The position numbers were made by a program, and so were the translations under genes. DNA of 64,000 nt from Amyelois transitella (Eukaryota > Arthropoda > Insecta > Lepidoptera > Pyralidae), in assembly GCF_032362555.1 (NCBI RefSeq), contig NC_083527.1:1736001-1800000 (forward strand). The letters run 5' to 3'. The notes under the pieces are model-generated. The model saw nothing but the letters and a program-made list of their open reading frames with translations. It was not told the origin of the DNA and did no database searches. Numbering within the stretch: the stretch's first letter is position 1; each line of letters starts with the position of its first letter. Shown piece after piece: positions 15,656-50,855 of the stretch.

Positions 15656-18600
15656 ATGTTTAACTACAAGTATTTAACACGGGAACACCTTGAAGGGTTC
15701 GATAATTATAAGGTGAAGTATTTAATTAAAATGCCTATTCAATCTTTAAGACTCTTTTACCTTAAATTACAAAGTTATTATGCGTTTTCTCTTGTGCGCA
15801 TTTAAAACTTCTTACCTAACCTAAAAATCAATAATAATGGCCTTCAATTTTAAGCAGAAGTTTTACTGCAATACTGCGTTTAAAAGTCATTGGTTTACAC
15901 CTTATAAATCATGCTAATATACAAATTTATAATTTTAATCATTATGGAGACAATGTACTGATGTGTAAATAAATAAAATACTAAATACTTATTTTTATGT
16001 GCCACTGCTAAGCAAAATTCGTAATTTCCTATTGACTAATGTAATTATAAAATTGTAGGAAATTTTCTTATATATGAAATAATAAGGTTTCGTTATGAAT
16101 GAAACCTTTATTAACATGAAAGAATGAAAATTTGTTTTTAATGGAGGGAGATGAGTAAAGTTTAAAAACAACTTATCTAAGTCTTGTCCTCATCAAGTTC
16201 TGAAGCTTACATATAGAATGGCCACAGGGGCTCCTGAGAAGTGACAACACAACTTATAGGAGGATGATGAAATTAAAATGCAATCATACTGATGTGTGAT
16301 AAGATCATAATACATACATAGGTACCACAAAAAGTGGAGACATAAATATATGTATAGAAATACATTTGCCACAGAATCGGTGTAATAAAAAACAAATAAT
16401 TTTTTTTCTTCAGTACATGGCGATAGACACGAGTCCGCTGAGTGTCTATGTAATGCATCCATTCTGGAACAAAGTTGTTGAGGTAACTCCTTTTAATATT
16501 TCAAATCATAACTTGAATTTTTGTAACAAACTAAAAAATACACAAACAAACATATAATCACGTCTTTATCCCTTGCAGGAAAGACAGAGCCAACAGCCTT
16601 GAAAAGACTGATAGGCCATGTTCAGCTCTTAAAGTGAAAGAGATATAGACGCAATAATACGAATGAATGAATATTTCGAACTCCATGTTCACTCCACAAG
16701 GAAGTCTTTACTGATGATTATTAAAATCATCAATCAGGTAAAGACTTCCTCGTTTGACAAAATATTTACAACTTAACATCTATCTAATGTTTGTCCTAGA
16801 AACATATAATTTTAATCTTATCAAGAACAGATGATGATAAAAAGGCAATGATTTAAATTTTTTTTTTAGTTTGGTTTCTGTTATGATTCATAGTATATCA
16901 CAGCTTAGGTAACATTATTAGCATATCATAAATTGATATATTTTTGATTGACATAATATCTACACTAGCTTTTACCCGCAACTTCGCCCGCGTGAATTTA
17001 GCACTTTATTTAAGATTGATATAGGAGATAACTCGTGTAGTGGTTACAAATAAATAGACTTTTGCATATATTATATAGTTGGTATATGTGGTCTAATTGA
17101 TATAGGAATAAACGAAAATTTATGTAAGAAAGAGCATGCATATGTACTGCTTTTCATACATATTATCCAAAGAGTTTATTCATAAATTTATCAATTCAAT
17201 GGGCCATCTTTATGTACCACAATAACAAACAAGCACTTTGTGATTAAAACAGAGGAGACTCGGCGAAACAATTGTTTATTGTTACCAAATATCGCAAGAC
17301 TAGAACATCTTAAAACAATCAGTTATTGAATTAATATACCTTTCTTGAGAATTTTTGTTATATAGATATATTGTTTCCTGCGTCTGTCCCTATGTATGTA
17401 TGTATGCTTAGATCTTTAAAACTACACAACGGATTCTGATTAATTTTTTTTTATATGTATAAATGCTATCCGTGCGAAGCCGGGGCGCGTCGCTAGTACT
17501 GTATTATATATATTTTTTATAATAAAGAACACTTGCAACATCACATATAGCAGTATATTCCTTCTTATTTTCAGCTCGTTCCACGCTGGGTAGCCCCCAA
17601 CGTGCTTACCTTCGCTGGGTTCCTCCTAACAGTCCTCGACTTCTTACTACTATCGTATTACGACTACGACTATACCGCGGCCAGTTCGCCTATACACAAC
17701 GTCACGGTCTCCGAGGCGTCTCTGAACGGTCACGAGGAGAGAATCCCACGCGCGTTGTGGCTGGCGCTTGCCGTGTTCCTGTTCCTTGCTTATACTCTTG
17801 GTAAGACTCTTAAACAAGAAACATAAGGACCTTTATGAATGTTCTCTTTGCTGTTTTCACCAAAGCGGCTCTCCGCTTTGAGAGACATGGAGAGGGATCC
17901 ATTTCCACCGAAGCTAAGCGGAGAGGATATGTGGAAATAACGTTATCTGATTGGTTATTTAAAACACATTTGATCTCGCCTCCTCTCCTATCCATTTTGG
18001 TGATAACGGAGGCTTAGTCTTCTACACAACGACAATATCTTCGAGGCGCCTCTGAACAGACATTCAGAGAGAATCCCGGGTTCCTGTTCCTGGGTTACAC
18101 TTTTAAATCTAGCTTTTCTCCTTCTTTTTGATGTTTCAGTCACATGTGTGTCAAAGCTAGCCTCATCATTATAATGAAGAGCTATCATCTCACTAATCTT
18201 CTTCCTTGCATTCTCACCACTCTGGAGAGGAGCCTGGGGTATGCTTTTGACCATGGATCCTGGATTGGAACACAACAGGGTTTACACAAAACGACTACCA
18301 TCTGAACTCCGCAACCTTTTGCAGGAGAACCTAACCCATATTGGATCGATCATAATCATGATCCCATGATGAAACCTGCATTTGGGCAACTAAATGCAGG
18401 TTTCCTCACGATGTTTTCCCTCACCGTAAGATCGTGTCATCTCGCTAAAATCATCATATTAAATAACTTAATCTCAACTCAATTCCATCATTTATCCATT
18501 AAGCTGTACATCTCCTCTCAGTCTCTCCAAGACTGTTGGCTCATCCTACCCAGTAAGGGATGAAGTCGTGATTATATGTATGTATGTCTGTATGTAAATC

Positions 18601-21600
18601 ACTTAATCTCTTTACAGATGGTATCGACGGCAAGCAAGCGCGTCGCACCCAAACTTCAGGGCCGTTGGGAGAACTCTTCGACCATGGTCTGGACTCCTAC
18701 TCAGTGTTCTTCATACCAGCGTGCCTCTACTCCATATTTGGGAGATTGGATTACTCCATACCGCCTATTAGGTGAGTACACTCTTTATTTTTAATTTTGT
18801 AATATAGGTTTCTCTTAGTGTCAATGTTTTTTGCATCTAAATCTGATTCAACCTATTGTACCTTAAAGAAAACCATTTTTGCATTTTAATTAAGCAGTGC
18901 CGTGTAGTTTCTGGCAATTTAGAATATAACACCAATTTGTTCCCATGGATATCGTAAAGGCGACTAAGGGAAAGGCTTATAAACTTGGGAGTCTTCTTGT
19001 AAGCGATGGCTAGCCATTAACAGCTGAATGTGACCCGTCAGTCTTACAAGACTGCTGGCTGTCTGCCCCGCAAGGGATAAAGACGTGATTATATTAATGA
19101 ACGATCATTAACTGCTATACAGCTGAGCCTTTCAGTTTTATCTAGACTGTGGCTCACTCTATAGGATGATGGAAGCATCTAGTAAAAACATTTTAAAATG
19201 AAATATTACAAAAATGTTGTCACAATAAAAAAAAAAATCAATCACACCCACAACGTTGGAAAGACTAAAAAAATATGTATATAACTTTTTCTTATTTCTT
19301 CTCAGAATGTATTACGTGATGTGGAACCTGCTTCTAAACTTCTACATCAGCCATTGGGAGAAATATAACACTGGCGTGTTGTTTCTACCGTGGGGGTATG
19401 ACTTCAGCATGTGGGTATGTCAATCTACATCAGGTATTTTTCTCATGAACCATTATTATACCCCGATTCAGTTTTTGCTGCAGACTATTGGAACCGTGCG
19501 GTTCTGACACTTTAGAATAGGACCGCTCTCTGTCTTTCCTATGGATGTCGTAAAAGGCGACTAAGGCTTATAAATTTGGGATTCTCCCATTAGCCGATGA
19601 GCTAGCAACCTGTCACTATTTGAAGCTCAATTTTATTAGTAGGACAAACAGCTGAACGTGGCTTATAAGACAAGACTGCTGGCTCTGTCTACCCCGCAAG
19701 AAGTATAAACATGATTATATCACACCCGTTTCCCATTGGGGTAGGCAGAGACTATGGAATTCCACTTGCTACGATCCTTACATATATCCTATATCCTTAC
19801 TATGTACTTTCAAGACTGTTGGCTCTGTCTACCCCGCAAGGGATATAGACGTGACCATATGTATGTATGTTACTATGTATGTATGCATGTACAATAAATG
19901 TATTTCTTTTCGTTACAGGCGTCAATAATGTTCTTCATATGCACGTATATAAACGGAACAGTTTTCTACAAGCGATACATTTTCGCCGGATACACCCTAG
20001 CGAACGCGTTCGAAATACTCATATATGCTACTGGTGTGTTCACGAATCTGCCTGTGGCAATATATAATATATACAAGTAAGTACCGTGTGGTTACCGGCA
20101 CCAATGCAAAAAAGAATAGGACCACTCCATCTCTTTCCCATGGATGGCGTAAAAGGCGACTAAGGAATAGGCTTACAAATTTGGGATTCTTCTTTTAGGC
20201 GATGGGCTAGCAACCTGTCACTATTTGAATCTCCATTCTATCATTAAGCCAAATAGCTGAACGTGGCCATTCAGTTTTTTCTAGACTGGTGGCTCTGTCT
20301 ACCCCGCAAGGGATATAGACGTGACCATGTATGTGTGTGTGTGAACTAACAACTAGACGAAGATAATAAAACTGGCATATGATAAAAAAAACCTCATTCA
20401 AATCACCTATTCTTATTTCAGATCGTACAAACTCCGTACAGGCAAGATGAGATCTTTAAGCGAAGCGTTACGCCCACTCTGGTCCTTCGTATCCGTGCTA
20501 GTGGTCTGTTCGATATGGGTGCACAAGTCACCATCATTGCTGACGTACGATCTCAGAGTGCTGTTTCTGCTTATAGGAACTATTTTTAGTAATGTTGCGG
20601 TAAGTTGTAATATAAATAAACTAATTTTGGTCCACGGCACAGCCTACATTATGCTTGAAATTCCGGTTTTCCTGGTCCCCGTAAATTATTCCCATGCTGC
20701 TGACTGAGACCGCTGCTGGTGACATTTAAAACAACTGCATCCTTTTAAACATAGACTATACCCATGCTTCTGGGCCATTTGAGCCTATTTTTATTTAAAT
20801 TAACGTCATCATTTTCACATTTAAAAAAAAACCCTCAAAAACTACGTCACACGCTTTATTAAAGACCACTACTACAAAAAGAAATTAAAACTATCGCTCA
20901 GCTGAATGAATTGTGTCGTTAACCTCCGAATCGTATGCGTCGCTTTTCGCCGGCCGGGATGATATAACGTATTTAGGATCGTGGATTTTGATACTTTTTT
21001 TTTCGTACTTTCTGAAATATGAACTGATATTTTTCTTTTAACGTTTTTAAATATCCTTTAGATGAGTGCACTTAACAGTTAGATTTATGCAGTTGAATTT
21101 AAAGTCACCCTGTATAAACTTGGTACAGAGAAGATGTTTAGGTCCTTCGTATCCGAGCTAGTGGTCTTCTCGATATGGGTGAACAAGTCTCCTTATTTAT
21201 TAATGTGCACAAAATTATATACAGGAGCATTTATTAACACACAAATTGAAAGTGACCGTTTTTAGGATTTATAATTTTCGAGTCCTGTTATCAAAAGTGT
21301 ATCAGTTGCATTCATCAAAAGACTGAAAGGTCACATTCAGTTTCCTGGCTATATGATAGAATTAGATTCATATAGTGACGGGTTGCTAGCCCGTCGCCTC
21401 TAAAGGAAAGAACAGATAGCCAGCAGCCTTTTTAGACTGCTGGCTTTGTCTACTTGGCAAGGGATATAGACATTATTATAATAAAAAAAAACTGATCCCT
21501 TTTTGAGTTTGTGGCGACATCTCTACGCCACGTCAATCATCGCGAAGAAATTGACGCGCTCAACCGATAGCAGCGAAGAATCTAAATCGCGATTTCAAAG

Positions 21601-22501
21601 ATTTCACGGATTGGAGTATAAATACAACCTCTGACACAACATCGTCTGTCGCGCGGTTCCCCAGGCATCACACCTAGCTTGGCGGAAGATCTTCGCTTTG
21701 ATGGTGGTCGAGCTGAATCATCGCTCCCGCTACAAGTTGAAACATGATAAAAAGCTTTCCTTGTCCGTCAGTGCCGCCTAATAGTGAGCCAGATGAGCGG
21801 GCAGCGCTGCGAGCTGGTGAACCGGCTGGTGTGGGCGCTGGCGGCCGCGGCGCTGGCGGCGCAGGCGCAGCCCCGCCTGGCGCCCGCCGCGCTGCGCGCG
21901 CTCGCCGCCGCCGCCCTCGCCGCGCACCTGCACTACGGCGCATGCGTGGTGAGACTGATATCTACATCCACTGTACACTATCTTCGGGACAGCCGACACT
22001 GATTCTTGGCCGCGTGTCTACATCCACTGTACATTAGTTCTGGACAGCGATTAGTTCTTTCCGCTTGCAACGATCCTTGCGTATTTCTTTCTCTAGTTTC
22101 AGACATTTGAAATACTCCCACGATTAATACACTACTAATACTAAAAATTACATTTTAATCAAAAGATCGCCACAATATACTATAGAATAGGAGGTGAATA
22201 TTTGTAGGGAATCAAATATAGTGCTTTTTACTTTATCCGCCGCGTCGCTAGTGTCGCCATATATACACCGGACCAAATTTTATACAATAACTCTGAATAA
22301 AAATAACTGCGGCATTCTGATAAACAGACGCACATGACAATACTAAAAGTCCCATTATTGCCTTTTGGCTAACGATTTGTTTAACTTTAAAAATTGTAAA
22401 CATATAACCCGCTTATAAAATGTAATTCTCCTTTTCAGGTGAGACAAATGTGCGACCACTTCAAAATAAGCTGTTTCCACGTAAAACAGAGGTCAGATTG
22501 A
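15656..22501 (+). CDS. EPT1: Ethanolamine phosphotransferase (EPT1/selenoprotein I family), complete, 9 exons
   Basis: This enzyme transfers phosphoethanolamine from CDP-ethanolamine to diacylglycerol in the ER/Golgi membrane, the last step of the Kennedy pathway. Coding exons by GT-AG sites and continuous phase: 15656-15712, 16414-16482, 17575-17800, 18618-18771, 19306-19414, 19919-20076, 20422-20599, 21772-21948, 22439-22501. They total 1191 nt, or 396 aa, close to the 397 aa of human EPT1. The start [19 protein letters not shown] matches the family N-terminus. The CDP-alcohol phosphotransferase signature DG(x)2AR(x)8G(x)3D(x)3D is complete, from D121 to D143, with its three Asp at 121, 139 and 143. 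HWEKYNTG and LPWGYD follow, then several hydrophobic membrane segments. Exon 8 is far more GC-rich and Ala-rich than the rest. The stop is TGA after QRSD, where the vertebrate protein has selenocysteine. Introns hold SINEs and decayed copies of exons 3 and 7. Very sure of the family; ethanolamine rather than choline use is inferred from closer resemblance to EPT1. Confidence 0.95.
16699..16750 (+). other. Intronic hairpin, possible small-RNA precursor
   Basis: A perfect 13 bp outer stem (AGGAAGTCTTTAC with GTAAAGACTTCCT) and an 8 bp inner stem (TGATGATT with AATCATCA) are separated by a 5 nt bulge on the 3' side, with an ATTAA loop. It sits in intron 2 of the EPT gene on the same strand. It could be a small foldback transposon or a microRNA-like hairpin; the sequence alone does not decide. 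Confidence 0.4.
17850..18012. repeat. MITE-like repeat in EPT intron 3
   Basis: The segment contains short inverted repeats: AAAGCGG-ctct-CCGCTTT near the left, and ATTTCCAC/GTGGAAAT around the middle. Its style is that of small non-autonomous lepidopteran elements. It lies between exon 3 and the decayed exon 3 copy at 18018. Confidence 0.45.
18018..18112 (+). pseudogene. Decayed partial copy of EPT exon 3
   Basis: This intronic stretch aligns to 17690-17800 of exon 3. CTACACAACG, TTCGAGGCGCCTCTGAAC, GAGAGAATCCC and TTCCTGTTCCT all have near-identical counterparts in the same order. A deletion of about 26 nt after GAGAATCCC removes the part coding for RALWLALAV and shifts the frame. No convincing acceptor or donor flanks it. 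It is read as a tandem duplicate about 330 bp downstream of the source exon that no longer codes. Confidence 0.8.
18190..18430 (+). repeat. Interspersed family C copy
   Basis: The family is recognised by ACCACTCTGGAGAGGAGCC, ACCATGGATCCTGGATTGG, ATTGGATCGATCATGGTTAC-like and GCAGGTTTCCTCACGATG blocks in fixed order. Other copies: 4545-4880, 11215-11280 continued at 11540-11760, 12655-12880, 36610-36890 and 38380-38610, all in + orientation. I cannot assign it to a named family. Confidence 0.7.
20083..20335 (+). repeat. SINE-like family A, near full-length
   Basis: A high-copy element of about 255 bp. Its head is like GCCGTGTGGTTACCGGCACC; the body contains ACCACTCCATCTCTTTCCCA, GGCGATGGGCTAGCAACCTG and CCCCGCAAGGGATATAGACG; the tail is rich in TATG. 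This copy begins only about 6 bases after the exon 6 donor of the EPT gene. Other copies or pieces, either strand: 1-90, 1870-2110, 3236-3325, 4005-4160, 6075-6220, 16555-16640, 18930-19100, 19497-19720, 19800-19870, 21310-21475, 26392-26510, 34505-34665, 35005-35155, 35650-35830, 38262-38370, 40437-40650 and 40695-40910. Confidence 0.85.
21112..21240 (+). pseudogene. Decayed partial copy of EPT exon 7
   Basis: GGTCCTTCGTATCCG, GCTAGTGGTCT, TCGATATGGGTG and ACAAGTC match exon 7 (20482-20530) in order. Read in the exon frame it gives [18 protein letters not shown] against [18 protein letters not shown] in the real exon. TATAAACTTGGTACAG just before it resembles the exon start coding YKLRTG, and about 25-30 nt between the two blocks are missing. 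The 3' part is eroded and no donor remains. It lies about 650 bp downstream of exon 7, within intron 7. Confidence 0.85.
21505..21715 (+). repeat. Interspersed family I, three copies in the window
   Basis: Shared blocks are GTGGCGA.ATCT..ACGCCAC, AAGATTTCACGGATTGGAG, ACAACCTCTGACACAACATC and a final CTAGC.TGGCGGAAGATCTTC. The other copies are at 7618-7830 and 13850-14010. This one ends about 55 bases before the EPT exon 8 acceptor. Confidence 0.75.
21959..22070 (+). repeat. 56-bp tandem duplication after EPT exon 8
   Basis: TCTACATCCACTGTACA occurs at 21961 and again at 22017, with related flanks. The first unit begins 11 bases past the exon 8 donor. Confidence 0.75.
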
Positions 22502-22525
22502 CTCTTAGACGACGATGCGTGCTAA
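22499..22525 (+). other. TGA at the vertebrate selenocysteine position, then a 7-codon open tail
   Basis: EPT exon 9 reads [20 protein letters not shown] and then TGA. The human protein has the same layout, ending in NSD-Sec-LGMEEKN. Here the codons after TGA read LLDDDAC and then TAA. Lepidoptera are reported to have lost selenoprotein synthesis, so TGA is taken as an ordinary stop. The tail may be a relic or chance. Confidence 0.6.
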
Positions 22526-22833
22526 ACATGACACATATAGCTAACATAATGTACGGCTACCATATCCACTATACAGGGTGAATGGTATGAAACGCGAAAT
22601 ATTTCACCTACTTGCTTATACCATCACTCTGAACAACTTTACCTATGATTATTTATACCATTAGCCCTGTATTGCAGAGTTACTTGTAAAATAACAATCT
22701 CGTAAGACTTGGTAGCTAGTCATATTTATAACAATATTTGTTCCTTGAGTTATGCTAATTCGTTACATTAAAAATATTTTTTATTGTTATGTTTGTTCTC
22801 AACTGACTAGACTTAAACATTTGACGACATTAC

Positions 22834-31184: not shown

Positions 31185-34100
31185 ATGTCCAAAAATAAAA
31201 TAGCAGCGAGAATTGACAGCCAAAGTGTTGAAGTCAAAACCAAAGTGAGTAACCGATTATAATAATATTGTAACTAATTTGAGACACGCAAGCTTATTAG
31301 CCTAGATTTTATGGTTGAAGATATACACTATGAAATCATTACTCATTCTCAAGTTATTTTCAATAATTTCCGTGTGCATTCGTAGTACAAAACGTGGAGA
31401 GACATCTGATTATAAATACCCAGATACGTGGTTTTGAACTAAGTTTCATTCCTATTTTTTAACTAGTTTTGTTCTATTTCAAACATAAATATAGTGTCTG
31501 CTATAGATATTTAGTGAATAAAAAGAGACAGATATAAAAAGAACAAAAAGATACACTGATAAAGGTTACACAAACTTTTTCTAGTAAGATTTGAGGTCAA
31601 TGGTCAGTGGATAATAACTTAAATGCGTTAAAATATAAAGCACAAACCTCTGGTAACTGTACTCCAAATTTATAAGAGTGGACGGATATCAGCAGTTGTC
31701 AGAGGCCACCAGTTTTCAAGCAATACAGTGTTGAATTGTATGGCATTGGCATATTTTAATGACACATCTCCCTGTTCAGAATACTCTAACTAAATTGATT
31801 CATAAACATTTCTTCTTCCTAGCTATAGTCCCAGTTGCTAGTCCTTCATATAAATATTGTATTGTGTTAAATTTGTTATTTATGAAACTGACCAGCTTGC
31901 ATGAAGAGAGTAATGAATGAGGTTGAAGCGAGAGAATGAGAATGCATTTATTGTAGCAAGGGGAAACATGAAGTCTCTGCCTCCAGGAAAGTGGTGTGAT
32001 TTTATATGTATATATATGTCAAAATACTGAAGGCTAGCCATTAGTGCCAGGCCCATTAAAAACTAGTGATTCTTATTTATGTGGTTGTCATTTAAACACC
32101 AAGATGTGCAGTATACATTGATTCCACACAACTACTTAGTAACTTATGAAAAGTATAAAGGTACTGTTACTGTTATGAATGTGTATTCAGAAAAGTATGT
32201 AAATATTCTTATCTAGTTAACAGTAGATAAGGTGCAGATTATCTTTGTTGGTAGTAAACATTTTACGCATTATGGAACAACCTAATAAAGAACTTGGCCT
32301 TTTACAACTATAATTAGTCATGATACAAAATAACATCAAGCCTGAAAAAAAATTCACTCTTATTTTTTACTAGCTGTGCCCGCGACTTCGTCCGCGTGGA
32401 ATAGTTATTTTGGGAATCATTGAAGCCCACAAGGATGAATAATTTACCCCTTTTTTTAACATTTTCGATTATTTCTTTGCTCTTAAAAGTTGAAATGTGA
32501 TGTTATATAGTCTAAAGCCTTTCTCAATAAATGGTCTATTCAACACAAAAATAATTTTTCAATTTGAACCAGTAGTTCCTGAGATTAGGGCGTTCAAACA
32601 AACAAACTCTTCAGCTTTAAAATATAAGCTAAAAATTATTATTTTTTTATTAAAATTTATTACTACTTTATCAGGCAGTAATATATCAAAAGATACTCTA
32701 TTCGCCGGATTCTAAGGTTTAAACACAAAGCATCACCAACCTCCATAGCAGGTTTATTCGCATGGAAAAATTTATATTATGACTTAAAACGGGACAGTAA
32801 AAGTTTTTTGGGCGATGAAAATGCCATCGTGTGTGTCATGCTACAGGGGCAAAACTTAAAAACGTATTTATTTTAATTTAACCTTACTCAACTAATCACT
32901 CACTATCAAATCAAAGGAGCAGCTCAGGTTCCTCTCCATAGGTGCGTAATTAAAGACGATATTATATTATCTGTATTCAAAAAGAGGCTATCTTCTTATT
33001 CTTAAATCCCCAGAAAAGGCGTGTTTTACGGCATAGACTACTATTATTTCAAATATTCAATATAGCTTTCAGAAAAAGTTATTTTTTTGATAATATCCGA
33101 ATCTTTCCTTTCAGTGCCGTGTGGTTACCGGCACCAGTACAAAACAAAATAGGACCACTCCATCTCTTTTCTATGGATGTCGTAAAAGGCGACTAAGGGA
33201 TAGGCTTACAAAACTTCTTTTTTAGGCGATGGGCTAGCAATCTGTCACTATTTGAATCACAATTTTATCATTAAGCCAAATAGCTGAACGTGGCCTATCA
33301 GTCTTTACAAGACTGTTGGCTCTGTCTACCCCACAAGGGATATAGATGTGACACAAGGGATATAGTTATATATGTATGTATGTAGTATATTAGCTGTATT
33401 CAAAAAGAGGCCTTCTTATTCTTAAATCCCTAGAAAAGGCGTGTTTTTTCGTGATGTGAACATATGTATGTATGCTTTCAGTTCGACGCAGAGTTCCGAA
33501 GGTTCTCACTGAGTCGGACAGAGAAGCTCAAGTACGAAGACTTCAAGGCTCTCATAGAGAAACTGCACCGGCTTCACGACGTGGCGTTCCTGATATCGTA
33601 CACAGACCCTCGGGACGGGGATCTGTTACCGATCAACAATGATGACAATTTGGCCAGGGCGCTGCTCACAGCGAGACCTTTACTCAGGGTCATTATTCAG
33701 AGGAAAGGTAGGTTCCTCTTATTCTTTTACCACAACTTACCTTGATCAAATTGGATAGGGACAGCTTAAAACTGATGAGCTGTAAAACAGAGTTATAATG
33801 TGGATGAAGCGAAAGAAGTTTGCAGGGATCATGACAAGTGGAAATACATCTTTGCCTTTTTTATTGTAACATATGATTTTTTATTAATCAACTAGCTGTG
33901 CCCGCTGCTTCGTCCGCGTGGAATAGTTATTTTGGGCATCATTGAAGCCCTCAAAGATGAATAATTTTCCCCGTTATTTTCACATATTTCATTATTTCTT
34001 TGCTTCTATAGTTGCAGCGTGATGTTATATAGCCTTCCTTGATAAATGATCTTTTCAATACATAAAGAAACTTTCAATTCGAACCAGTAGCTCCTGAGAT

Positions 34101-37100
34101 TAACGCGTTCAAACAAACAAACACTTCAGCTTTATAATATTAGTATAAAATGATATTAGATTTTCATACATAATATGTTTTGACCCTAATGTGATAGACA
34201 GAAGCAATAGTCTCGAAAAGACTGGAAGGCTACCTTTTAATCTTTTCGAGACTGTTGGCTCTGTCTACCCCGTAAGACGAGATATATGTATGTATTAATT
34301 AGATAACCATGTTGACGCCCATTACCACTATTTAGCACACAGCCCATAATTGTCTAAATAACAATGAGATGAAGTCAGATGTACTAACTAGGCTTAACTA
34401 TTGTTGACGAATTTGCATAGAATCCGCCACCACTCCCATACCAGTTTTTGTCAGTACATAATGTATTGAATTAAAGTCGATATTTGATTAATTTTATATT
34501 TTAAGGGATATGCTTATAAACTTGGTATTCTTTATTTTTGGCGATAGTTTAGCAACCTGTCACTATTTGAATTCTATCATAAAGCCATACAGCTGATCGT
34601 GGCCTTTCATCTTTTTAAGACCGCTGGCTCTGTCTACCCCGCAAGGGATATAGCCATGACTATAAACTATAGAACAATGATATCTAGTGCCCATTGATCG
34701 AGACTTTTACACCGGCAGGCCAAGGACCAATTTATTATCTCATCGAGTCTGGAGATTATTGTCAATTGTTTTGTTTCATGACATTACGGTCAATTGAATT
34801 GCTTTTTTTAACCCACTTTGATACGGGATGGGTATCTTTGTGAGCAAAAATTGAAAGCAACAGCGAACTGCTAAAATATGTATTATACGTACACACAATT
34901 GGCTGACCTAATGATACTCGTAGAAGCATTATCTACCAGTTAACCATTGGGTCTGACAGAGAATTTTAATGGGCTCATAATAATTCAAATAAACTTATAT
35001 ACCTACTAAGGGATAGGCTTATAAACTTGGGATACTTTGAGCGATGGGCTACCACTATTTGAATCTCAATTCTATCATTAAGCCAAACAGCCGAATGTGG
35101 CCTATCAGTCTTTCCAAGACTGCCTACCCCGTAAGAGACGTAGACGTGACAGTGTGCAGTTAACTTTAAAAAAAAGTCACACGATAGCGGTAAAACGGAA
35201 CTATAACCACAGTAAAATTTATACTACGTTGATTATATACATAGTGATAAATCATCACATCTAATCTCGTCATTGTGACCCAGGTAAGAAGGTCTATAAT
35301 CCCAAAACGGGATACAAGTGATGAGCAGTCAGCGTGACGCATTTCTAATTGGCTCTAATGTGCACGGACATGTCAGACTCGTTTTGATTATACATATTTA
35401 AAAGTAGCTGTGCCCGCAACTTCGTCCGCGTGGAATATTATTGAAGCCCTCAAGGGTGAATAATTTTCCCCATATATTTCACATTTTCCATTATTTATAA
35501 ATATAATAATTAATTATTTATAGCTTTTTATATCGATTCAAAAATGACGAAGTTCCATACAAACTTGCACCCTCAATTTCACTCCCATACCAGTTTTTGT
35601 CAGTTCATAATGTATCTATATAAAGTCGATATTTGATTAATTTTATATTTTAAGGTATATGCTTATAAACTTGGTATTTTTTTTTGGCGATTGGTTAGCA
35701 ACCTGTCACTATTTGAATCTCAATTCTATCATTAAGGCAGACAGCTGAACGTGGCCTATCAGTCTTATGCCTATCAAGACTGCTGGCCCTGTCTTCCCCG
35801 CAAGGGAAATAGACGTGACTATATGTATGTATGAATCATTTTTTTATGCACCTTTCCATATGATAAATATTTCCGCTTGCCACGACCTCTGCACACTTCT
35901 TTCACTTCATCCACATTCATTACTCTCTTCATGCAAGCTAGTCAGTTTAGGTGACCTAACTTTAACTCTTCGAATTTGGTGAATGTCATGCGAAGTCTAC
36001 TTGGCAGTGGTACTCTTGACCTGGAATCAAATCAAACTAGAGTTTTAGTGGGTGGAACGTCTAGAATTCCTCAAACACATAATAATTGCAAGCACGCCAC
36101 TGACAAGCCGTGACCGTGACTCGGGACTACGGCAAATAGAGTGTAGGTAGGTGTACCTATCATTTGTGTACGGTGTCAAGTTGTGAACTGACAGCGGAAT
36201 TTACCGCACAACTACATCTATTTCCTCTTGCCCCCGTGGTAGGTAGGTACCTATGGCATGCACGACGTCTGTTTTTTAGCGCGAAAAACTATCGCTGTTT
36301 CGCTTTTTATTATGACGTGAAACGGGACAGCGGATATAGGTTTTCGCGCGATATGTTTTGTAATCATGTTTTTTAATTTAGACAATGTGCACTCGTCCAC
36401 GATTTAGATTTAAGAGATCTATATTTGTCAATTGACGTCCGGTAAAAATGCTGCAGTGTAGTTTGTTCCGCCGCTTCTTCTACACATGCGCTTTGGAAGC
36501 GGTAGTAGTAATAATTAGATTTAAGTGATGTGACGTCAATAAGTGATACCTCGTATCCAATTTTGAAAATAAATCTATTCTATTCTATATAAACTGTATT
36601 GCGCGTGCCATGCTACAAGGGCTGGCTCTAGTCCCGTTTACATCCTCATCCCTCTGGAGAGGATCCCGGGGTCCGCTTTAAACCATGATTCCAGGATTGG
36701 GTGAATCATGTTTTTACACGAAGCGACTCCCACCTCACCTCTGCGACCTTTTCAGGGGAATATAACACGTATTGGACATGATTATGATTACACCTCCACT
36801 CTTCAGAATGTACAGATTTCCCTAGGTGTTTTCCATCATCGTAATATCATTGGTTATCACTCAAACTAATATACATAATTCAGAAAAAAGTCATTGCTAT
36901 ATGACTGTAGCAGGATTTGAAACTTCGCCTGCTTAATTCGCATGTAGAATTAAACCTTTTTATCGGGCATTTATTTTATTTTATTTTTATTTATTTATAA
37001 AGGCAACACAACAGACACTAAGTAATAAAATACAAGGTTTCTTAATAACTAAAATTGTTCCAACTTACCATCCTAAACGTGTATGCGCAGTTGATTAAGC

Positions 37101-40100
37101 TTATTAACTTATATAAAACTTGTTATGAACAAGTATTTCTTCAATTCCGCTTTCCGCTTATAAATTGAGCATTCTTCTAAACATGTATGTTCAACCTTCC
37201 GTTACGGTAGAAGGAACAGCACTTATGCGACGCTGCTGGGATTCAGGTGCGAGCCTATTGAACTAATAAATGTATAGACTATAGCTGTGACCCGCGACTT
37301 CGTCCGCGTGGAATAGTTATTTTGGGCATCATTGAAACCCTCAAGAATGAATAGTTTTCCCCGTTTTTTTTTTCTTCACATTTTCCATTATTTCTTTGCT
37401 CCTTATATTTGGAGGGTGGTGTTATATAGCCTAAAGCATTCCTCGATAAATGGTCTATTCAACGCAAATAGAATTTTTCAATTCGAACCAGTAGTTCCTG
37501 AGACTAGCGCGTTCAAACAAACAAACTCTTAAGCTTTATAAAATTAGTATAGATACCTACAATACATACATATAATCACGCCTTTATCCTTTACGGGGTA
37601 GACAGAGCCAAAAGACTCGCAAATACTGAAAGGCCACTTTCAGCCGTATGGTTTAATGATAGAATTGAAATTCAAATAGTGACAGGTTGCAAGCCCATCG
37701 TCTAAAAGAAGAATCGCAATAGTCTATTAGCCCCTTGATTTACCCCTACAATCCGCACGGGAAGAGAAGCGTCAATCCCTTAGTTGCCTTTTACGACATC
37801 AATGAGAAATATGAAGTGGCCATACTCCAAAGTTCCGGGAACCACTCGGCACCAAAGGCATATAGGAAGCGAACAAGCTCAACTTAATCAATATAACTAA
37901 AGAACAATATGGTAAAACACATTTGCACCGCGAAGGAATTCAATTCAGAGCCATAGTACAATCAACAGCACATCGACATACCTAAATTTACTGCGAATTC
38001 GTCTCTATTACCGCGCTATAGAGTTCTGTGTGGGATGTGTTACGCGGTTAACTGTACTATAACTATGTATGTATAGGATTAGTAATGCGGCCTTACTTGT
38101 GCGTTGGTTGACTCACTACTAAACCAATTAGGTTTGTATTGCAATAGAAACAAATCATATTTATTCGCAAAGGGGAAATAGTTGTTTTGTTTCGAACAAA
38201 CACTTGTACTGACTAAATGAATGAATACAATACAATTTGTACAATATAAAAAAAATAATAAAACCACTCCATCTCTTTATCATGGATATCGTAAAAGGCG
38301 ACTAAGGGATAGGCTTACAAACTTGGGATTCTTTATTTGGGGGATGGGCTACCAACCTGTCACTATTTGAATCTAAGTCTTCTTCCTCCTGGCTATAGTC
38401 CAAAAGAGAAAACTAAAACACTCAAAAGAGAAGCCCTAAGTACGCACTTAACTTAAGGGTGAGTCAGGTTTTTACACGAAGCGACTCAGACCTTTGCAAG
38501 AGAATCTAGAGTTTAGATTCTCTTAGATCACGGTTACATACACATCCAGTTGGCTGAATGTGCAGGTTTTCTCAAGATGTTTTCCCTCACCGTAAGAGCA
38601 AATCTATTTAAGTATTTAATATAAAATTAGTTGTATTAGTGTTGCTTAACACAAGTCTCAATCTTCCTTGGCTGGTGCAATCTGCGTAATTTTTCCCGTA
38701 AAAAATACTTGAGCCAAAAGGGTTCTAAATTTAAAATTATATATATTTTTTTAATATTCTGGTGACAGTTTGAAGGACTCAAAGATTCTGAATTTAAAAT
38801 TATAAAATAAAAATGTTTCTTTTTTCAGGTGACAGTTTGGAAGAACTCAACGGTTACGGCACGATGCGTCCGCGCAACATCATATCGTCTATACTCAGCG
38901 GCACCCCGGCGAAGAACAAAGGATTGGCGATATCCAACCCGCACGATTTCAGAATGGTATGTTTTATATTAAAGTATAATTTTATGAAGTTTCAAAGGTC
39001 GGAAACCTATCGCATTATGATAGTTCCCTTACAATAAAAAAATACTTAATTAAATCACCTAATCTGTTAAATATTTTTTTCGTAGCGAATTAACATTTTT
39101 AAATTAAATAAATATTATTAATAGTTTGATATAATCGATCCATCCAAACTTATAAATATGAAAGTTTGTTACTTCTTCACAGCTAAATCTAAACCGAAGT
39201 TAATGGAAGAATACCTATATAACATAATTTTGTATTTTTTCAGGTATCAGCAATAATAGACGTCGACATAGTACCAGAAACATGTAGAAGAGTTAAGTTA
39301 TTGAAACACGGCTCAGACCGACCTTTAGGATTTTTCATTAGGTAAGATTTTCACTAAATACATATGATATGACGTCTATGGGTATTGAGAGACGGTGGTC
39401 GAATGAATAAGTACCTAGGCCGTACCTACTTTTCTGAGTTTTATACATTAGTTTCAGTACTAACCGACTGTCTTATTGTGAGAGAAAAACATCGTAGTTA
39501 TACCTGCACATATAGGCAAATGGATGTGTAACCATGATCAATACAAAACGGGTTAGGTTCCCCTGCTGAGGTTGCGGAGCTCACAAGCTATATCTGTTCG
39601 TGGCGGACTCACAATCCAGTCTCCAGAGCATGGCACGTGCCATTTTTTTCGAAAAACTATCCCTGTCCCGTTTCACATCATATAAAAAGCGAAGCGATAA
39701 AAACGGCGTCGCGCGTGCCATTCTACGGAGGTTGGATCATAAACAAAGGTGCACCCCAGACTCCTCTCCAGAGAGGTGAGGATGAAAATAAGAGTTAACG
39801 CCAGAAGGGAGAAGGCTCAAAAATTTCAAAGAATATATTTATAATTTACTAGCTGTGCCCGCGACTTCGTCCGCGTGGAATAGTTATTTTGGGCATCATT
39901 GAAGCCCTCAAGGATGAAGGATGAATAATTGTCCCCGTTTTTTTTACATATTCCATTATTTCTTTGCTCCTAATAGTTGCAGCGTGATGTTAAATAGCCT
40001 AAAGCCTTCCTCGATAAATGGTCTATTCAACACAAAAAGAATTTTTCAATTCAAACCAGTAGTTCCTGTGATTAGCGCGTTCAAACAAACAAACAAACTC

Positions 40101-42940
40101 TTCAGCTTTATAATATTAGTATACATTTTGTTACTTTTATATTAGCACCGCCATACGAAGGCCTAATGTAAATTCATTTTCCCAGGGATGGTACATCAGT
40201 TAGGGTGACTCCGAACGGTGTGGAGCGTTCCCCGGGCATCTTCATATCCCGACTCGTCCCCGGGGGATTGGCAGAGTCTACCGGCCTTCTGGGGGTCAAC
40301 GATGAAGTGCTGGAAGTCAACGGTATTGACGTATCCAATAAGACTCTGGATCAGGTCAGTTGGTTTTTATTTCTTTTCTATTGCTAGCTTTTGTCGCCTG
40401 TTTTTGCTCGCTTCGAAACTGTATATGCTATATGGTCACGTCTTTATCCCTTGCGGAGTAGACAGAACCAACCGGTCTTGAGAAGAGCTGAAAGGACACA
40501 TTCAGTTGTATGGTTTAATAATAGAATTGAGATTCAAATAGTGACAGGTTGTGCTTACCCATTGCCTAACAAAGATTCCCAAGTTTATTAACCTATCCCT
40601 TAGTTGCCTTTTACTACCCTTAGTCGCCTTTTACTACATCCATGGGAAAGAAATGGAGTGACCCTTTTTTTGTTTTAATACCCCGGTATTAAAACAAAAA
40701 AAAGGTGAAAGGTTCGCCTATAAGAAAAGTTCTAAGTTGGTTAGCCTTTATTAGCCTTTCCCTTAGTCGTATTTTACGACATCCATGGAAATAGTATGGA
40801 GTGGTCCTATTCTAAAATGACGGGGGCCACACGGCACTAAACTATTGTGGGGCAGACAGAGACAACAAACAGTCTTGAAAGCACTGTTAGGCCACGTTCA
40901 GCCGTTTGGCTTGATAATAGAATTGAAATTAAAATAGTTGTCACTATTTGAATCACAATTCTATCATTAAGCTGAACGTGGCCTGCCAGTCTTTTTTAAG
41001 ACTGTTAGCCTTGTCTACCAAGGATATAGACGTGATTATATGTATGGGTGTTCAAATCCGACGGCCTCTGTGGCGCAGCGGTAGTACGCTTGTCTGTGAC
41101 ACCGGAGGTCCCGGGTTCGAATCCCGGTCGGGGCATGATGAGAAAAGAACATTTTCTGATTGGCCTGGGTCTTGGATGTTTATCTATATAAGTATTTATT
41201 ATAAAATATAGTATCGTTGAGTTGGTATCTCGTAACACAATTCTCGAACTTACTTCGAGGCTAACTCAATCAGTGTAATTTGTCCCGCATATATTTATAT
41301 TTATTTATTTCAAATCAGGTGACGGACATGATGGTGGCCAACTCGTCCAACCTGATCATCACGGTGCGGCCCGCCAACCAGCGCGCCGCGCCCGCGCCCG
41401 CCGCCGATGCGCACGCGCACGACAGCGAGCCGGACGACAGGTACGTACGTTATATATATGTATATATTTTATACATACATATGGTCACGTCTATATCACT
41501 TGTGAGGTTGACAGAGCCAACAGTCTTGAAAAGACTGATAGGCCACGTTCAGCTATTTGGCTTAATGATAGGATTGAGATTCAAATAGTGACAAGTTGCT
41601 AGCCCATCGCCTAAAAAAGAATCTCAAGTTTGTAAGCCTATCCCATAGTCGCGTTTAACGACATCCACGGGAAAGAGATGGAGTGGTCCTGTTCTTTTTT
41701 GTATTGGTGCCGGGAACCATACGGCACTCCCATCCCATATTTTTTTTATCTTATATATAAAATTTTTGTGTCACAATGTTCGTTCCCGTACGTATGAAAT
41801 TTTTTGAGCATATTGAGTAGGTCTGAGAATCGGCCAACATCTATTTTTCATACCCTTTAGTGATAAGGGTTGTCCACCCTGAACATTTTTTTTAACTAGA
41901 AATTACTTAAAAATCTATACTTATATTATAAAGCTGAAGTGTTTGTTTGTTTGAAGGCGCTAATCTTAGGAACTACCTACTGGTTCGAATTGAAAAATTA
42001 TTTTTGCACCGAATAGACTATGTATCGAGGAAGGCTACCAGGCTTAGTATACCATTACGCTGCAACTATTAGGAGCGAATAAATAATGGAATATGTGAAA
42101 TAAAACGGGGAAATTTATAATATTCATCCTTGAGGGCTCCAATGATGCCCAAAATAACTATTCCACGCGGACGAAGTCGCGGGCACAGCTAGTCTTATAT
42201 ATAAAATTATCGTGTCACAATGTTCGTTCCCGTACTCCTCCGAAACGGCTTGACCGATTCTCATGAAATTTTGTGAGCATATTGAGTAGTTCTGAGAATC
42301 GGCCGACATCTATTTTTCATACCCCTTAGTGATAAGGGTTGTCCACTCTTAACATTTTTTTTGTTACTAGATATTACTTTATATTTATATGGCAAAACAA
42401 CATTTGCCGGGACAGCTAGTTTTGTTTATATGTTTTAGGCGATGGGCTAACTGAGGGGTTAGTGCGATCAAACGCGGGGTTAGTGCAAGTAATCGCGAAT
42501 TTGTATGGAATTGCATATAAATTTCGTCAGACATAAAAATAACTTGCTAATAGTATAAATGCGTGTGAGTGTGTACATATGTTTGTTACCTTTTACGCAA
42601 ATACCACTGAACCGATTAAGATTAACTTTGGTATGTAGATAGCTGGAGTTACTAAGACTTATTCTCCCGCAATTCCCGCGGGATTGATTCCACGCGTACT
42701 AAGTCACGACCGACCTCTAATTGTATTATAAATGTAAATTGACTTTAATATTTATCAAATAAAAATGAGTATCACTTCAAAATGTTAAACGTTATTTATT
42801 CATCTTTTCCTAACAGATTCGACCAAGACGAACAGGATGAGATCGTCGACCTCACCGCGGTGACTTTAGACGAACAACCGGAACAGTCGAACTTCCAACA
42901 CATTTCTACGAAGGACGACGGACAAGTGTTACACCTCTAG
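31185..42940 (+). CDS. par-6: Par-6 (partitioning defective 6) polarity protein, complete, 7 exons
   Basis: Par-6 is the adaptor of the Par-3/Par-6/aPKC complex that marks the apical cortex of epithelia, neuroblasts and oocytes. Exons: 31185-31244, 33482-33707, 38829-38956, 39244-39341, 40186-40354, 41319-41440 and 42817-42940, totalling 927 nt (308 aa) with consistent phase and GT-AG sites. The start MSKNKI matches the family. The PB1 domain (about 21-93, with the acidic [15 protein letters not shown] motif) binds aPKC. The partial CRIB (about 130-148, [20 protein letters not shown]) binds Cdc42-GTP. The PDZ domain (about 153-245) has the carboxylate loop PLGFFI. The C-terminus ends VLHL, a PDZ-ligand-type tail. 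The linker after the PDZ is Ala/Pro/His-rich and shorter than in Drosophila. Introns are full of SINEs and Helitron-like elements, and the segment before exon 3 is a boundary duplication. Identification is certain. Confidence 0.97.
32370..32640 (+). mobile_element. Lep1-like non-autonomous Helitron, Par-6 intron 1
   Basis: Starts CTAGCTGTGCCCGCGACTTC and ends TTCAAACAAACAAACTCTTC plus a short AT tail. CGCGACTTCGTCCGCG can fold with one bulged C, as expected of a Helitron end next to CTAG. No coding capacity. Copies in the window: 5570-5715 (+, truncated), 8612-8868 (-), this one, 33890-34146 (+), 35405-35490 (+, truncated), 37283-37555 (+), 39849-40125 (+) and 41927-42195 (-). The Lep1 name is given from memory of the lepidopteran family. 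Confidence 0.75.
33114..33385 (+). repeat. SINE-like family A, near full-length, in Par-6 intron 1
   Basis: Runs from GTGCCGTGTGGTTACCGGCA through the standard body to GATATAG and a TATGTATG tail. It lies between two direct copies of a ~65 bp intronic sequence (32960-33022 and 33385-33445), so it sits within or beside a local tandem duplication just before exon 2. Confidence 0.85.
33890..34146 (+). mobile_element. Lep1-like Helitron copy, Par-6 intron 2
   Basis: Starts ACTAGCTGTGCCCGCTGCTT and carries the same body (GTTGCAGCGTGATGTTATAT) and the CAAACAAACA tail. Small deletions in the middle. Confidence 0.75.
36250..36615. mobile_element. Family F foldback element split by a family E insertion
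   Basis: The left part of family F (GCATGCACGACG through TTTCGCGCGATATG) is at 36250-36364. Its right end GCGCGTGCCATGCTACA is at 36599-36615. Between them is a family E element of about 220 bp (ACAATGTGCACTCG through AAATCTATTCTATTC). Family E therefore inserted later. Other family E copies: 8885-9025, 54145-54310 and 56672-56874. Confidence 0.65.
37283..37555 (+). mobile_element. Lep1-like Helitron copy, Par-6 intron 2
   Basis: Near full-length, from TAGCTGTGACCCGCGACTTC to the CAAACAAACTCTTAAGC tail and ATTAGTATAGAT. Confidence 0.75.
37570..37857 (-). repeat. SINE-like family A copy
   Basis: Reverse-strand family A with the GACAGAGCCA, GACAGGTTGC, TTTTACGACATCAATG and CCGGGAACCAC blocks in order. 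It carries an internal insertion or divergence around 37735-37775. Confidence 0.75.
38720..38828 (+). repeat. Duplicated intron/exon boundary before Par-6 exon 3
   Basis: The block TTCTAAATTTAAAATTATA followed by GGTGACAGTTTGAAGGACTC at 38759-38780 is repeated about 70 bp later as TTCTGAATTTAAAATTATA followed by the true acceptor and GGTGACAGTTTGGAAGAACT. In the upstream copy the acceptor AG reads TG (ttctGG against ttcaGG), so it should be inactive. Confidence 0.85.
39849..40125 (+). mobile_element. Lep1-like Helitron copy, Par-6 intron 4
   Basis: Near full-length, beginning CTAGCTGTGCCCGCGACTTC. It ends about 60 bases before the exon 5 acceptor. Confidence 0.8.
41057..41308 (+). mobile_element. 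tRNA-derived SINE, full length, directly before Par-6 exon 6
   Basis: The tRNA-like head has an A box (TGGCGCAGCGG, 41069-41079) and a B box (GGTTCGAATCC, 41114-41124). A tRNA-unrelated body follows (GATTGGCCTGGGTCTTGGAT, AGTATCGTTGAGTTGG), then an AT-rich tail. An 8-bp target-site duplication TTCAAATC flanks it at 41049-41056 and 41309-41316. Relatives: 7830-8012 (-), 11281-11540 (-) and 13186-13345 (-, head missing). Confidence 0.9.
41474..41730 (-). repeat. SINE-like family A copy in Par-6 intron 6
   Basis: A full-length reverse-strand copy, ending in GTGCCGGGAACCATACGGCA. It starts about 35 bases after the exon 6 donor. Confidence 0.85.
41927..42195 (-). mobile_element. Lep1-like Helitron copy, Par-6 intron 6
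   Basis: Inverted copy. Its hairpin end GCGGACGAAGTCGCGGGCAC then AGCTAGT reads at the right side, next to a family D copy. Confidence 0.8.
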
Positions 42941-43820
42941 TTTGTGCAGTTTGTATTAAAGAGATACAAGAGACGGTGTCAGTAACGAACATTCCGGTAT
43001 GTTAAGATTTAAAAAAATAAATAAGAAGAAACATAATGCCTATGTCGATAGTGTAAGAAACATCGATATTGTCGATAGTGTAAAACAATTTTATAGATTT
43101 CAATTTTGTGTAATCAATCTATTCTGTCGATAGTGTATAAAAGTCGATACTATTGATAATCACAAGCAATACTTCCGGTTGTGTAGAAAACATCGATAAT
43201 GACATAACATATCAATTACATGAATAGTATTAGCCTTTTGCGAAAACCAATTGATGTTAAGACTATCGATCGTGTCTTAAAATTTATTTCTAACGATTGT
43301 TTATACAAAATAACTAACCAACAGCTTAACTTTAAACACATCCCTACAAAGGGTGACGGTCAAGTGGTACATCTCTTATATGTGGAGTTTGTATTAGGAA
43401 GATACAGGAGACGGTATCTGTAACGAACATTCCGATTTTAGAAAAAAAAGGAGAGAAAATCTATATCGATAGTGTAAAAGTCGATAGTATCGATACAATG
43501 AAACAATCAATACTATCGACATTTAAAATATAATCGATAGTGAGTAACATCAATAGTTTAAAACAATTCTATAATACGTGAAAAGCTATCCTAAAACATC
43601 TAATTATATCTATATTATTAATGATATTTAGCGGCCTAACTACAGTGACTACGATTTTATCAATCAAAGGAGACAGTATCCGTTAACGAACATTGCTATT
43701 TATTAAGATTTTAAAAGAATAAGAAGAAAAATAAAGCCTATATCGGTAGTGTAAGACACATCAATATTGTCGATAGTGTAGGAAACATCGATAGTGTAAC
43801 AAATCAATTATACAAATAAT
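42855..43820 (+). repeat. Three tandem, decayed copies of the Par-6 last exon end and 3'UTR
   Basis: Copy 1 is the real exon end plus 3'UTR (to about 43200). Copy 2 (about 43290-43600) repeats it 438 bp on: CACATCCCTACAAAGGGTGA and CAAGTGGTACATCTC match the coding end, but the stop codon has been lost (VLHL-stop became VVHLLY). Copy 3 (about 43615-43820) lies a further ~263 bp on and keeps only GGAGACAGTATC, TAACGAACATT and the following block. Each copy carries several TCGATAGTGTA repeats. Confidence 0.85.
43220..43423 (+). pseudogene. Non-functional copy of the Par-6 terminal coding segment
   Basis: The frame reads LNFKHIPTKGDGQVVHLL, against [17 protein letters not shown]-stop in Par-6. 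It is a fragment of a tandem duplicate without an acceptor and with the stop lost. It should be transcribed as part of the 3'UTR if the mRNA extends this far. Confidence 0.8.
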
Positions 43821-43829
43821 ACCCTTTGG

Positions 43830-48700: not shown

Positions 48701-48716
48701 AAATTTTGGCGCCAAA
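48579..48716 (+). promoter_or_regulatory. Two E2F-type sites upstream of the first DUSP23-like gene
   Basis: TTTCCCGC at 48579-48586 and the palindrome TTTGGCGCCAAA at 48705-48716 both fit the E2F consensus TTTSSCGC. The ATG is at 48761. This suggests cell-cycle-linked expression; it is inference from motif only. Confidence 0.45.
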
Positions 48717-48760
48717 TTTAAACTTTTTAATTTCTCGTGACAGTGAAAGGGAAGTTCAAT

Positions 48761-50855
48761 ATGGCTGACGAAGAGTACCGCGTGATCACTAGGATGGAAG
48801 ACATCACGGAGCAAGACGACAAAACGCTGGCGGGCGCGAAAAAAGAAATCAGAAATGAGTTGACAGTTATTATACCAGAAAACCCGTTCCCAGAGATAGA
48901 AGTTGATGCGTACCCGCCTTTAAAATTCTCATGGGTTATACCTAAAAAAATTGCGGCGATGGCCTTTCCTAGGAACAAAGAAAATTTAAAGTTTTTAACT
49001 AATCAGGGTATAACGCATTTAGTCACATTGACAGCGGGTAAGAAACCGCCAGTGGATGATATCCCCAGGTTAAAATGGACAGAGATTCCTATTGAAGAGT
49101 TCGAAATTCCCACCACCGAGCAGATTAAGAAGTTCATTGACGTGTGCAAAAGGGCAGATAAATGTGACGAGGTAAGTGTCTGTGACCCAATTTATGACCA
49201 AAATACGACTGACAATGACCTATATGTAAATATTTAAAAAAATAGTTGAAACTGTATTTCGAAACCGAGCATGTGTTTGATTTCGGATCTTGAACTATAC
49301 TCCGCTCCAAATTTCATAAAACAGCTGTGCTGCGAGGGTGTAACAGTCATTGGTGTCCATATGAAGTGCGTTTTTGTTTTTGTAAAAATAAAGTATTTAT
49401 TCAATGAACACTGTAATACAAAAAATAAAATAAAAAAGTACATAATTAATAAGTATTAGCCCTAAAAAATCTTTTGTATGTTTGTATTGATCGGCTAATC
49501 TACGTTTCGTAGATTGAACCTTAGAATAATTATGTTGAAAAGTATAGATAACTTTCAACGAATTCCTGGCTATTGTGATGATGTTTTGCAATCGCAACAA
49601 TCGCTTTTTGTCGTACAGTCAACCACACATAAACCCTTCATGGAACTCTATGACGCTGTAATAGAGGCAAAATTAGAATTTAGCAACATTTTTTTATTCT
49701 TTTAAAATTCCCACAGCACAAGAGATATGATCCAAATTGTTATGATAAAAATTATTTTTACCCTCGAAAAACAGGTGATGGCCCTCCACTGCCGGCAGGG
49801 GCGCAGCCGCAGCGGCGTCATGCTGGCTTCTTACCTCATACACTTCCACCGGTTCCAGCCAGACCAAGCCATGAACGCGATTCGGATGATTCGCCCTGGT
49901 CAGTATAAAAAAACTCTTTAGCAACCTTAAAAAAATAAAAGAGAAAAAAGACGAATAAGAATACATATAAAGACGCAAAGACTGACATTTTGTTTGTTCT
50001 TTATTTGATCTGCAGTTTATGGTCTTTTCATTACAGTAAATAATACTAAAACTTTTGTTTATTTCAGTCCGAAGTTTTGAAAAGAAAAATTTTTTTTGTT
50101 GATTTCTCGGTCTGTAAATATAAATTGATAATTTCACCATTCTTGTCATCTCCCGTATGGTCTAGTGGCTAGGATACCTGGCTTTCACCCAGGAGGCTCG
50201 GGTTCGATTCCCGGTACGGGAAAAACTTTTTTGTTTTTTTTTTTTGTGATCAGGTTTTGTTTTTTAAATTCACATTGAATTTATTTTCTTTATATCTTAG
50301 CAGAAATCCAAAATGATTTTCACACGCTGGATAAGATAAACAGTCAGATAAACAGATAAATTTAAAGAATTGATTAAGTTTTACAACACATTGTAGGTAC
50401 ATTTAAAAGACATTTTTCAACCACTGATTTACTACTTTACGAGATTTACACATTTCTTAAGACTTTACTAAGGAGGCAGCCCTCTATCACCTACCAAAGG
50501 TCAGCTAGCATAATGTTGATCTGGCGCCAATTCTGAATATTATAAAGAAAAGAAACTTGAAAAGCGAAAGTAATATTGTCTGTATGTCAAATGGTTTACT
50601 CTTCTTTTTTCAGGCTCCCTAGACTTTCCGAAAAACAGATAATTTAAAAGCGAAAGTAAATTTGTCTGTAGATATGTCAAATAGTTTAATCACTCCTTTT
50701 TTTCAGGCTCTCTAGACTTCCCTGAACATGAAGAGGCTGTCGGCAAATACTTCGAGTACCTGACGGAAGATAATCCCGTAAAGTTCGGAGTAAGCGGGGA
50801 CATCATGGAGGAATTCATTGAAAACGCCAAAGAGAGCACAAAAAAAGTGCTATGA
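48761..50855 (+). CDS. DUSP23: DUSP23-like dual-specificity phosphatase A, complete, 3 exons
   Basis: A small cysteine phosphatase of the DUSP23/VHZ type. Exons: 48761-49171, 49775-49898 and 50707-50855; 684 nt, 227 aa. An acidic N-terminal extension of about 50 residues precedes the family core, which begins YPPLKFSWVIPKKIAAMAFP (human DUSP23 begins with NFSWVLPGRLAGLALP). The P-loop HCRQGRSRSG has nucleophile C143 and R149. The loop that normally carries the general acid Asp (IPDF in human) reads EEFEIP here, so Glu113 is at or next to that position. The start at 48761 is chosen because it is the first ATG; the frame open upstream has none. A 93-bp duplication just before exon 3 creates a second acceptor. 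AATAAA overlaps the region directly after the stop (50863). The second gene downstream is its paralogue. The substrate is unknown. Confidence 0.92.
50151..50222 (+). tRNA. tRNA-Glu (anticodon UUC)
   Basis: A complete 72-nt cloverleaf. The acceptor stem TCCCGTA pairs with TACGGGA. The A box is TGGTCTAGTGG and the B box GGTTCGATTCC. The anticodon arm CCTGGC-TTTCACC-CAGG gives UUC. The discriminator base is A. An oligo-T run (TTTTTTG, 50227 on) can end Pol III transcription. It lies in intron 2 of phosphatase A on the same strand. Looks intact rather than SINE-derived. Confidence 0.95.
50548..50706 (+). repeat. 93-bp duplication creating a decoy acceptor before exon 3 of phosphatase A
   Basis: AAAAGCGAAAGTAA, TTGTCTGTA, ATGTCAAAT, then a polypyrimidine tract, CAG and GGCTCCCTAGACTTTCC (50614 on) are repeated as the same series leading into the true exon 3 at 50707. 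The upstream acceptor is intact. If used it would add SLDFPKNR and stop at 50640-50642. Confidence 0.9.

Follow-up and report, generated by a model that had tools for sequence, protein, structure and literature searches.

Short direct copies of exon pieces in a 64-kb stretch of Amyelois transitella DNA

Does short local duplication single out exons, or are exons where old copies stay recognisable? The question is raised by a 64,000-nucleotide stretch of the genome of the moth Amyelois transitella (NCBI RefSeq assembly GCF_032362555.1, contig NC_083527.1, positions 1,736,001 to 1,800,000 of the forward strand), referred to here as the window and numbered from its first letter. Five small copies of gene pieces lie beside their originals, in the same direction, within three of its genes: an EPT-like (ethanolaminephosphotransferase) gene, Par-6, and the dual-specificity phosphatase-like gene A. 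The copies are real, and they quite probably arose through ordinary small duplications, tandem or proximal, old copies remaining recognisable because conserved exons provide the reference.

The five cases comprise six local alignments, each scoring higher than any of 200 dinucleotide-shuffled versions of the copy (z 4.8 to 14.4). All are direct, with offsets of about 67, 93, 305-330, 660-687 and 438/700 nt. A first-pass annotation had proposed five such duplications, direct and on the same strand, and all five were found close to where it had placed them. Three of them, at the Par-6 exon 3 edge, the phosphatase A exon 3 edge and the Par-6 3' end, consist of adjacent head-to-tail direct units, the arrangement of small tandem duplications, whereas the EPT exon 3 and exon 7 copies do not. 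The tandem units, some of them reaching into the 3' untranslated region (UTR), are as follows.

38725..38787, plus strand: Par-6 exon 3 acceptor, upstream tandem unit; 53/59 against the downstream unit; AG now TG
38788..38855, plus strand: Par-6 exon 3 acceptor, downstream unit; working acceptor, exon starts at 38829
50545..50630, plus strand: phosphatase A exon 3 acceptor, upstream tandem unit; intact CAG at 50613/50614; expect value (E) 3e-13
50631..50728, plus strand: phosphatase A exon 3 acceptor, downstream unit; working acceptor, exon starts at 50707
42882..43319, plus strand: Par-6 3' end, first unit; last ~59 coding nt and 3'UTR, coding in use here only
43320..43667, plus strand: Par-6 3' end, second unit, in the 3' flank; E 1e-25; unit end approximate
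43668..43821, plus strand: Par-6 3' end, third, shorter unit; E 1.3e-24; boundaries approximate

The two Par-6 exon 3 units are exact head-to-tail neighbours across the intron end and exon start. Scored with a matrix built from 17 acceptors of the window, in which real sites range from -3.4 to 14.9, the upstream copy reached 3.4 and the real site 14.4; this duplicated acceptor has been lost. Another survives in phosphatase A, where the units, again exactly head-to-tail over an intron end and exon start, align as 50545-50634 with 50631-50728 (77/89), and the duplicate scored 14.2 and the real site, itself left out of the matrix, 11.8. Reading from the upstream acceptor gives GSLDFPKNR*, nine codons and then a stop. 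Phosphatase A has a pair of acceptors in competition, separated by about 93 nt, of which the one upstream is predicted to reach a stop, and this offers an immediate test. At the Par-6 3' end, 92/115 positions are identical between 42882-42996 and 43320-43434, and 99/115 between 42970-43087 and 43670-43787. These had been described as tandem copies of the Par-6 last exon; tandem units they are, but they hold just the last ~59 coding nt and 3'UTR, without the acceptor. The Par-6 3' units (43015-43821) also carry CGATAGTGT-like motifs at high density, a small tandem array in its own right.

The two EPT copies lie in the intron following the parent exon, and each is made of two blocks.

17575..17800, plus strand: EPT-like exon 3, parent; splice sites TTTCAG/CTCG and CTTG/GTAAGA; copied pieces 17693-17747 and 17773-17799
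18023..18104, plus strand: EPT exon 3 decayed copy in intron 3; two blocks, with 25 nt of the parent absent between them; z 4.8
20422..20599, plus strand: EPT-like exon 7, parent, with splice sites; copied pieces 20425-20458 and 20481-20532
21112..21192, plus strand: EPT exon 7 copy in intron 7; two blocks, with 22 nt of the parent absent between them; end of intron 6 absent from the copy

For exon 3, the first block (17693-17747 to 18023-18077) is identical at 43/55 positions and the second (17773-17799 to 18078-18104) at 22/27, the latter above all 1000 shuffles. For exon 7, the first block (20425-20458 to 21112-21140) matches at 25/29 positions, likewise above all 1000 shuffles, and the second (20481-20532 to 21141-21192) at 47/52 (E 1.1e-12). 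Non-adjacent to their sources, within 5 kb of them, and 82 and 81 nt long, the EPT copies fit the range of proximal duplications, in which copies reach up to about 619 bp.

Local direct duplication in the window is real and far above chance, as the first-pass annotation had held. Dispersed repeats were masked beforehand (23.7% of the window, 89 segments) with a window-based, incomplete mask that detects only repeats recurring more than 2 kb away within the window. Local pairs less than 2 kb apart and less than 50% masked were all direct and none inverted, with 10 alignments in 8 places, a count that includes Par-6 exon 3, which the local pair search missed. Three of these places lie off mapped exons and had been overlooked.

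5900..5986, plus strand: local direct duplication off mapped exons; partner 6798-6883; 79/84, E 2e-22; exons unmapped below 16.4 kb
13122..13158, plus strand: local direct duplication off mapped exons; partner 13775-13811; 33/37, E 4e-6; exons unmapped below 16.4 kb
32960..33027, plus strand: local direct duplication, non-exonic; pairs with 33383-33447, whose end lies 35 nt upstream of Par-6 exon 2; 62/65, E 1e-19, 14% masked

In a scan of 2275 unmasked 60-nt tiles, each compared with 1 kb on either side, 63 tiles had a direct match and 0 an inverted match at a score of at least 48, and the counts were 70 and 5 at a score of at least 44. Exons were mapped over 16.4-64 kb, the stretch below 16.4 kb being left unmapped; the set (n=34) includes exons of three minus-strand genes that are approximate and do not all translate cleanly. 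In a scan within 3 kb, strong direct matches turned up for 3 of these 34 exons and inverted ones for none.

The best preserved local pairs are two non-exonic ones, at 95% (32960/33383) and 94% (5900/6798) identity, followed by Par-6 exon 3 (90%), EPT exon 7 (89%, 72/81), phosphatase A (87%, 77/89), the Par-6 3' units (80-86%) and EPT exon 3 (79%, 65/82), although these identities are not directly comparable, since both sides decay in intron pairs and mainly the copy decays in the EPT cases. The phosphatase copy had been called fresh and the EPT copies eroded. The cases do differ, suggesting different ages, but not in that order: erosion is greatest in EPT exon 3, and phosphatase A shows no better preservation than EPT exon 7.

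The account that we favour for the five cases is short-range duplication of an ordinary sort, in an insect genome rich in introns. At the Par-6 exon 3 edge, the phosphatase A exon 3 edge and the Par-6 3' end the duplications are small, tandem and head-to-tail, a type that has been ascribed to slippage or to double-strand breaks being filled in and joined. The EPT copies most plausibly arose by local copying at a break, a short EPT piece being captured with breakpoints near exon edges by chance, or as tandem duplications that were subsequently broken up and eroded. A copy that lands in an intron or the 3'UTR is nearly neutral and decays while the parent exon is kept, and exon-derived copies are therefore recognisable for longer than intron-derived ones. 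A decay simulation with assumed rates, in which the parent exon was set to keep out 75% of changes, gave a detectable life 1.28 times that of intron pairs for half-exon copies and 1.58 times for exon copies. We infer that this ascertainment is the main source of the link to exons, and the first-pass annotation's own caveat, that exons may simply be where old copies can be recognised, is the likelier reading. The account of ordinary duplication is supported by the direct-only excess, by the adjacency of units in three cases, by the detection advantage in the simulation, by the scan of the 34 exons, by the published parallels given below, and by similar duplications off the exons, of which two are better preserved. 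So does the tile scan support it: 9/289 exon tiles had a strong local direct match, against 54/1986 others, the latter including copies of exon pieces, and there is no exon excess.

Several observations weigh against this account. By event, exon-touching duplications numbered 5/8 in the whole window against 2.26 expected (P=0.042, 20,000 placements; the phosphatase event meets the 15-nt overlap threshold exactly), and 5/6 within 16.4-64 kb against 1.98 expected (P=0.015); within 16.4-57.6 kb, P was 0.009. A 1.5-fold detection advantage raised P to 0.12 in the whole window but left it at 0.045 in the mapped part, and a 2-fold advantage gave 0.22 and 0.09. Both EPT copies end 1-3 nt within an exon boundary (3 nt at the exon 7 start, 1 nt at the exon 3 end), and in a narrow flank test the adjoining intron was not found beside them (p=0.23 for exon 3, 0.42 for exon 7), with a simulated power to see co-copied intron of 0.79 and 0.996, respectively. 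Co-copied intron, as a sign that the EPT copies began as tandem duplications, was accordingly not found; a broader exon 3 flank test gave p=0.025, which the narrower one did not uphold. The exon-bounded ends are the one feature that plain tandem duplication leaves unexplained. The five non-adjacent pairs are all direct, a 1/32 chance if orientation were free, and PMC2671141, which describes an inverted exon copy, differs in this from the present, all-direct set; orientation-free capture is not favoured by this. The event numbers are also tiny. The event-level excess at exons is suggestive at most, because the finding was chosen since exons were involved, which makes the event P values flatter the exon link; the window itself was also picked for the pattern. 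For the earlier idea that exon edges are singled out there is a weak event excess and no tile excess, and one window cannot settle whether local copying favours exons.

A process favouring exons or their edges, such as exon-bounded, RNA-templated or transcription-coupled repair, would account for the 5/6 events and for EPT copies bounded 3 nt and 1 nt inside the exon with the adjoining introns absent. Three of the five cases plainly include intron or UTR, however, there is no tile excess, and the pattern was picked after the fact. A spliced-RNA template should run on into the neighbouring exon and a circular exon RNA into the same exon's other end; neither was seen for the EPT copies, in exon 4 or exon 6 (p=0.76 and 0.44) or at the other end (p=0.65 and 0.71). 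Such a process is unlikely, and it is similarly doubtful that the duplications are truly exon-biased and stop at exon boundaries, the piece being chosen during break repair from processed or exon-marked sequence. Retention for function, as alternative exons, poison exons or alternative acceptors, finds its best case in phosphatase A, whose upstream acceptor is intact and the stronger of the two, and whose predicted use adds nine codons and a stop. None of the five cases combines a complete exon, both splice sites and an open frame, since the EPT copies are partial, with gaps, the phosphatase unit has an in-frame stop, and the Par-6 exon 3 unit has lost its AG. The EPT copies also lack the parent acceptor, and functional exon copies are ruled out by frame and splice sites in four of the five cases, phosphatase A excepted; we regard this explanation as quite improbable.

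Carriage by transposable elements, by exon capture as in Helitrons, has in its favour the 23.7% of dispersed repeat in the window and the richness of Lepidoptera in Helitrons reported in PMC3789558. Against it, no copy lies within a dispersed repeat of the window-based mask: the exon-related pairs are 0% masked where listed (Par-6 exon 3 is not listed), zero exon bases are masked, and all copies are direct and near their parents. A mobile element suspected by eye between EPT exon 3 and its copy came down to an inverted repeat that is too weak (p=0.043). Such carriage is very unlikely. An assembly artefact, from misjoined haplotypes or collapsed repeats, appears more improbable still: the copies diverge from their parents by 5-22%, indels among the differences, and have their bounds within introns, and haplotype misjoins would usually be longer and nearer identical.

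Short local duplication is a known kind of mutation, of which the present case is a further instance, in an insect. PMC2671141 reports 824 human proximal repair-mediated duplications with a median of 147 bp, lengths up to 619 bp and donors within 5 kb, which can take in UTRs, splice sites and a few whole or partial exons; the 'doublets' of Thomas et al. 2004, as reported there, are likewise among the closest known systems. The present copies are alike in short length, closeness to the source and exon, UTR and splice-site content; that survey, as described there, looked at copies inside interrupted transposable elements of vertebrates and set aside pairs within 50 bp, whereas three of ours are adjacent. 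Small tandem duplications arising from break fill-in and end joining are described in PMC8355091, and their direct units, joined head to tail and tens of bp long or longer, suit Par-6 exon 3 and phosphatase A; those came from induced breaks in mammalian cells, whereas the present cases are known from sequence. Pervasive local duplication in fly regulatory DNA is reported in PMC3188502.

Tandem exon duplications, including degenerate ones outside annotated exons, are described in PMC9013439, and Exonize (PMC12343006) reports many partial and intronic exon duplications across 20 genomes. The likeness lies in exon-like copies in adjacent introns and UTRs; the difference is that none of the five here spans an entire exon together with its two splice sites. 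According to PMC9013439, the share of exon bases with an in-gene homologue at 80% identity or more is about 2% in human and 0.08% in fly; about 3% of the bases in the mapped exons here are matched by a copy at about 80% identity or higher, by a hand sum that leaves out some short blocks, by another method and in a single window. Intron gain by tandem genomic duplication (PMC4974935, PMC2809761) is alike in that a duplication bearing a splice site can yield a new usable site; here there is at most a duplicated acceptor and no new intron shown. Were exon-biased copying true, genes would keep receiving spare exons and acceptors that then decay, and if the exon link held in young duplications genome-wide, it would point to an unrecognised source of new splice sites. 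If duplication is ordinary, old duplications seem tied to exons because one of the two copies is under purifying selection, which is a bias that scans for exon remnants would have to correct.

Besides the genes named, the window holds a small CHCH-like gene, phosphatase B and a PSMD9-like gene. The Par-6 PB1 and PDZ domains and the phosphatase A phosphatase domain are Pfam-supported; phosphatase B and PSMD9-like exons gave Pfam matches under the curated cut-offs, and two EPT exons tested gave none. The EPT name rests on motifs in the translation. The phase of Par-6 exon 3 was checked by translation, and the full frame of phosphatase A was translated. Searches matched no moth-like DNA with the EPT exon 4 protein in genome_contigs or with the Par-6 PB1 exon in viral_contigs. 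Phosphatases A (48761-50855) and B (52821-54631) adjoin on the same strand with similar first exons, probably reflecting an older whole-gene tandem duplication. Intron 2 of phosphatase A harbours, on the gene's own strand, a transfer RNA (tRNA)-Glu (TTC) gene at 50151-50222 (64.5 bits). Weaker tRNA-His-like matches at 41064-41135 and 11464-11535, on opposite strands within dispersed repeats, are possibly tRNA-derived mobile elements. One repeat family ending in GGCTCTGTCTACCCCGCAAGGGATATAGACGTGA fills introns with many copies in both orientations, including 18478-18596, 19495-19904, 20080-20349, 33113-33400 and 34502-34688; an exact 25-nt pattern of it found no moth-like DNA in viral_contigs.

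The EPT-like frame (region 22439-22525) ends in ...KQRSD at a TGA (22499-22501), followed by an open LLDDDAC and then a TAA. Vertebrate SELENOI carries selenocysteine after SD at the place matching this TGA. An Rfam search of the window at gathering scores detected no selenocysteine insertion sequence (SECIS) element, three tRNAs being the sole matches. Selenoprotein loss was reported in PMC2500217 for the Lepidoptera sequenced at that time. The EPT TGA is probably a former selenocysteine codon that now serves as a stop.

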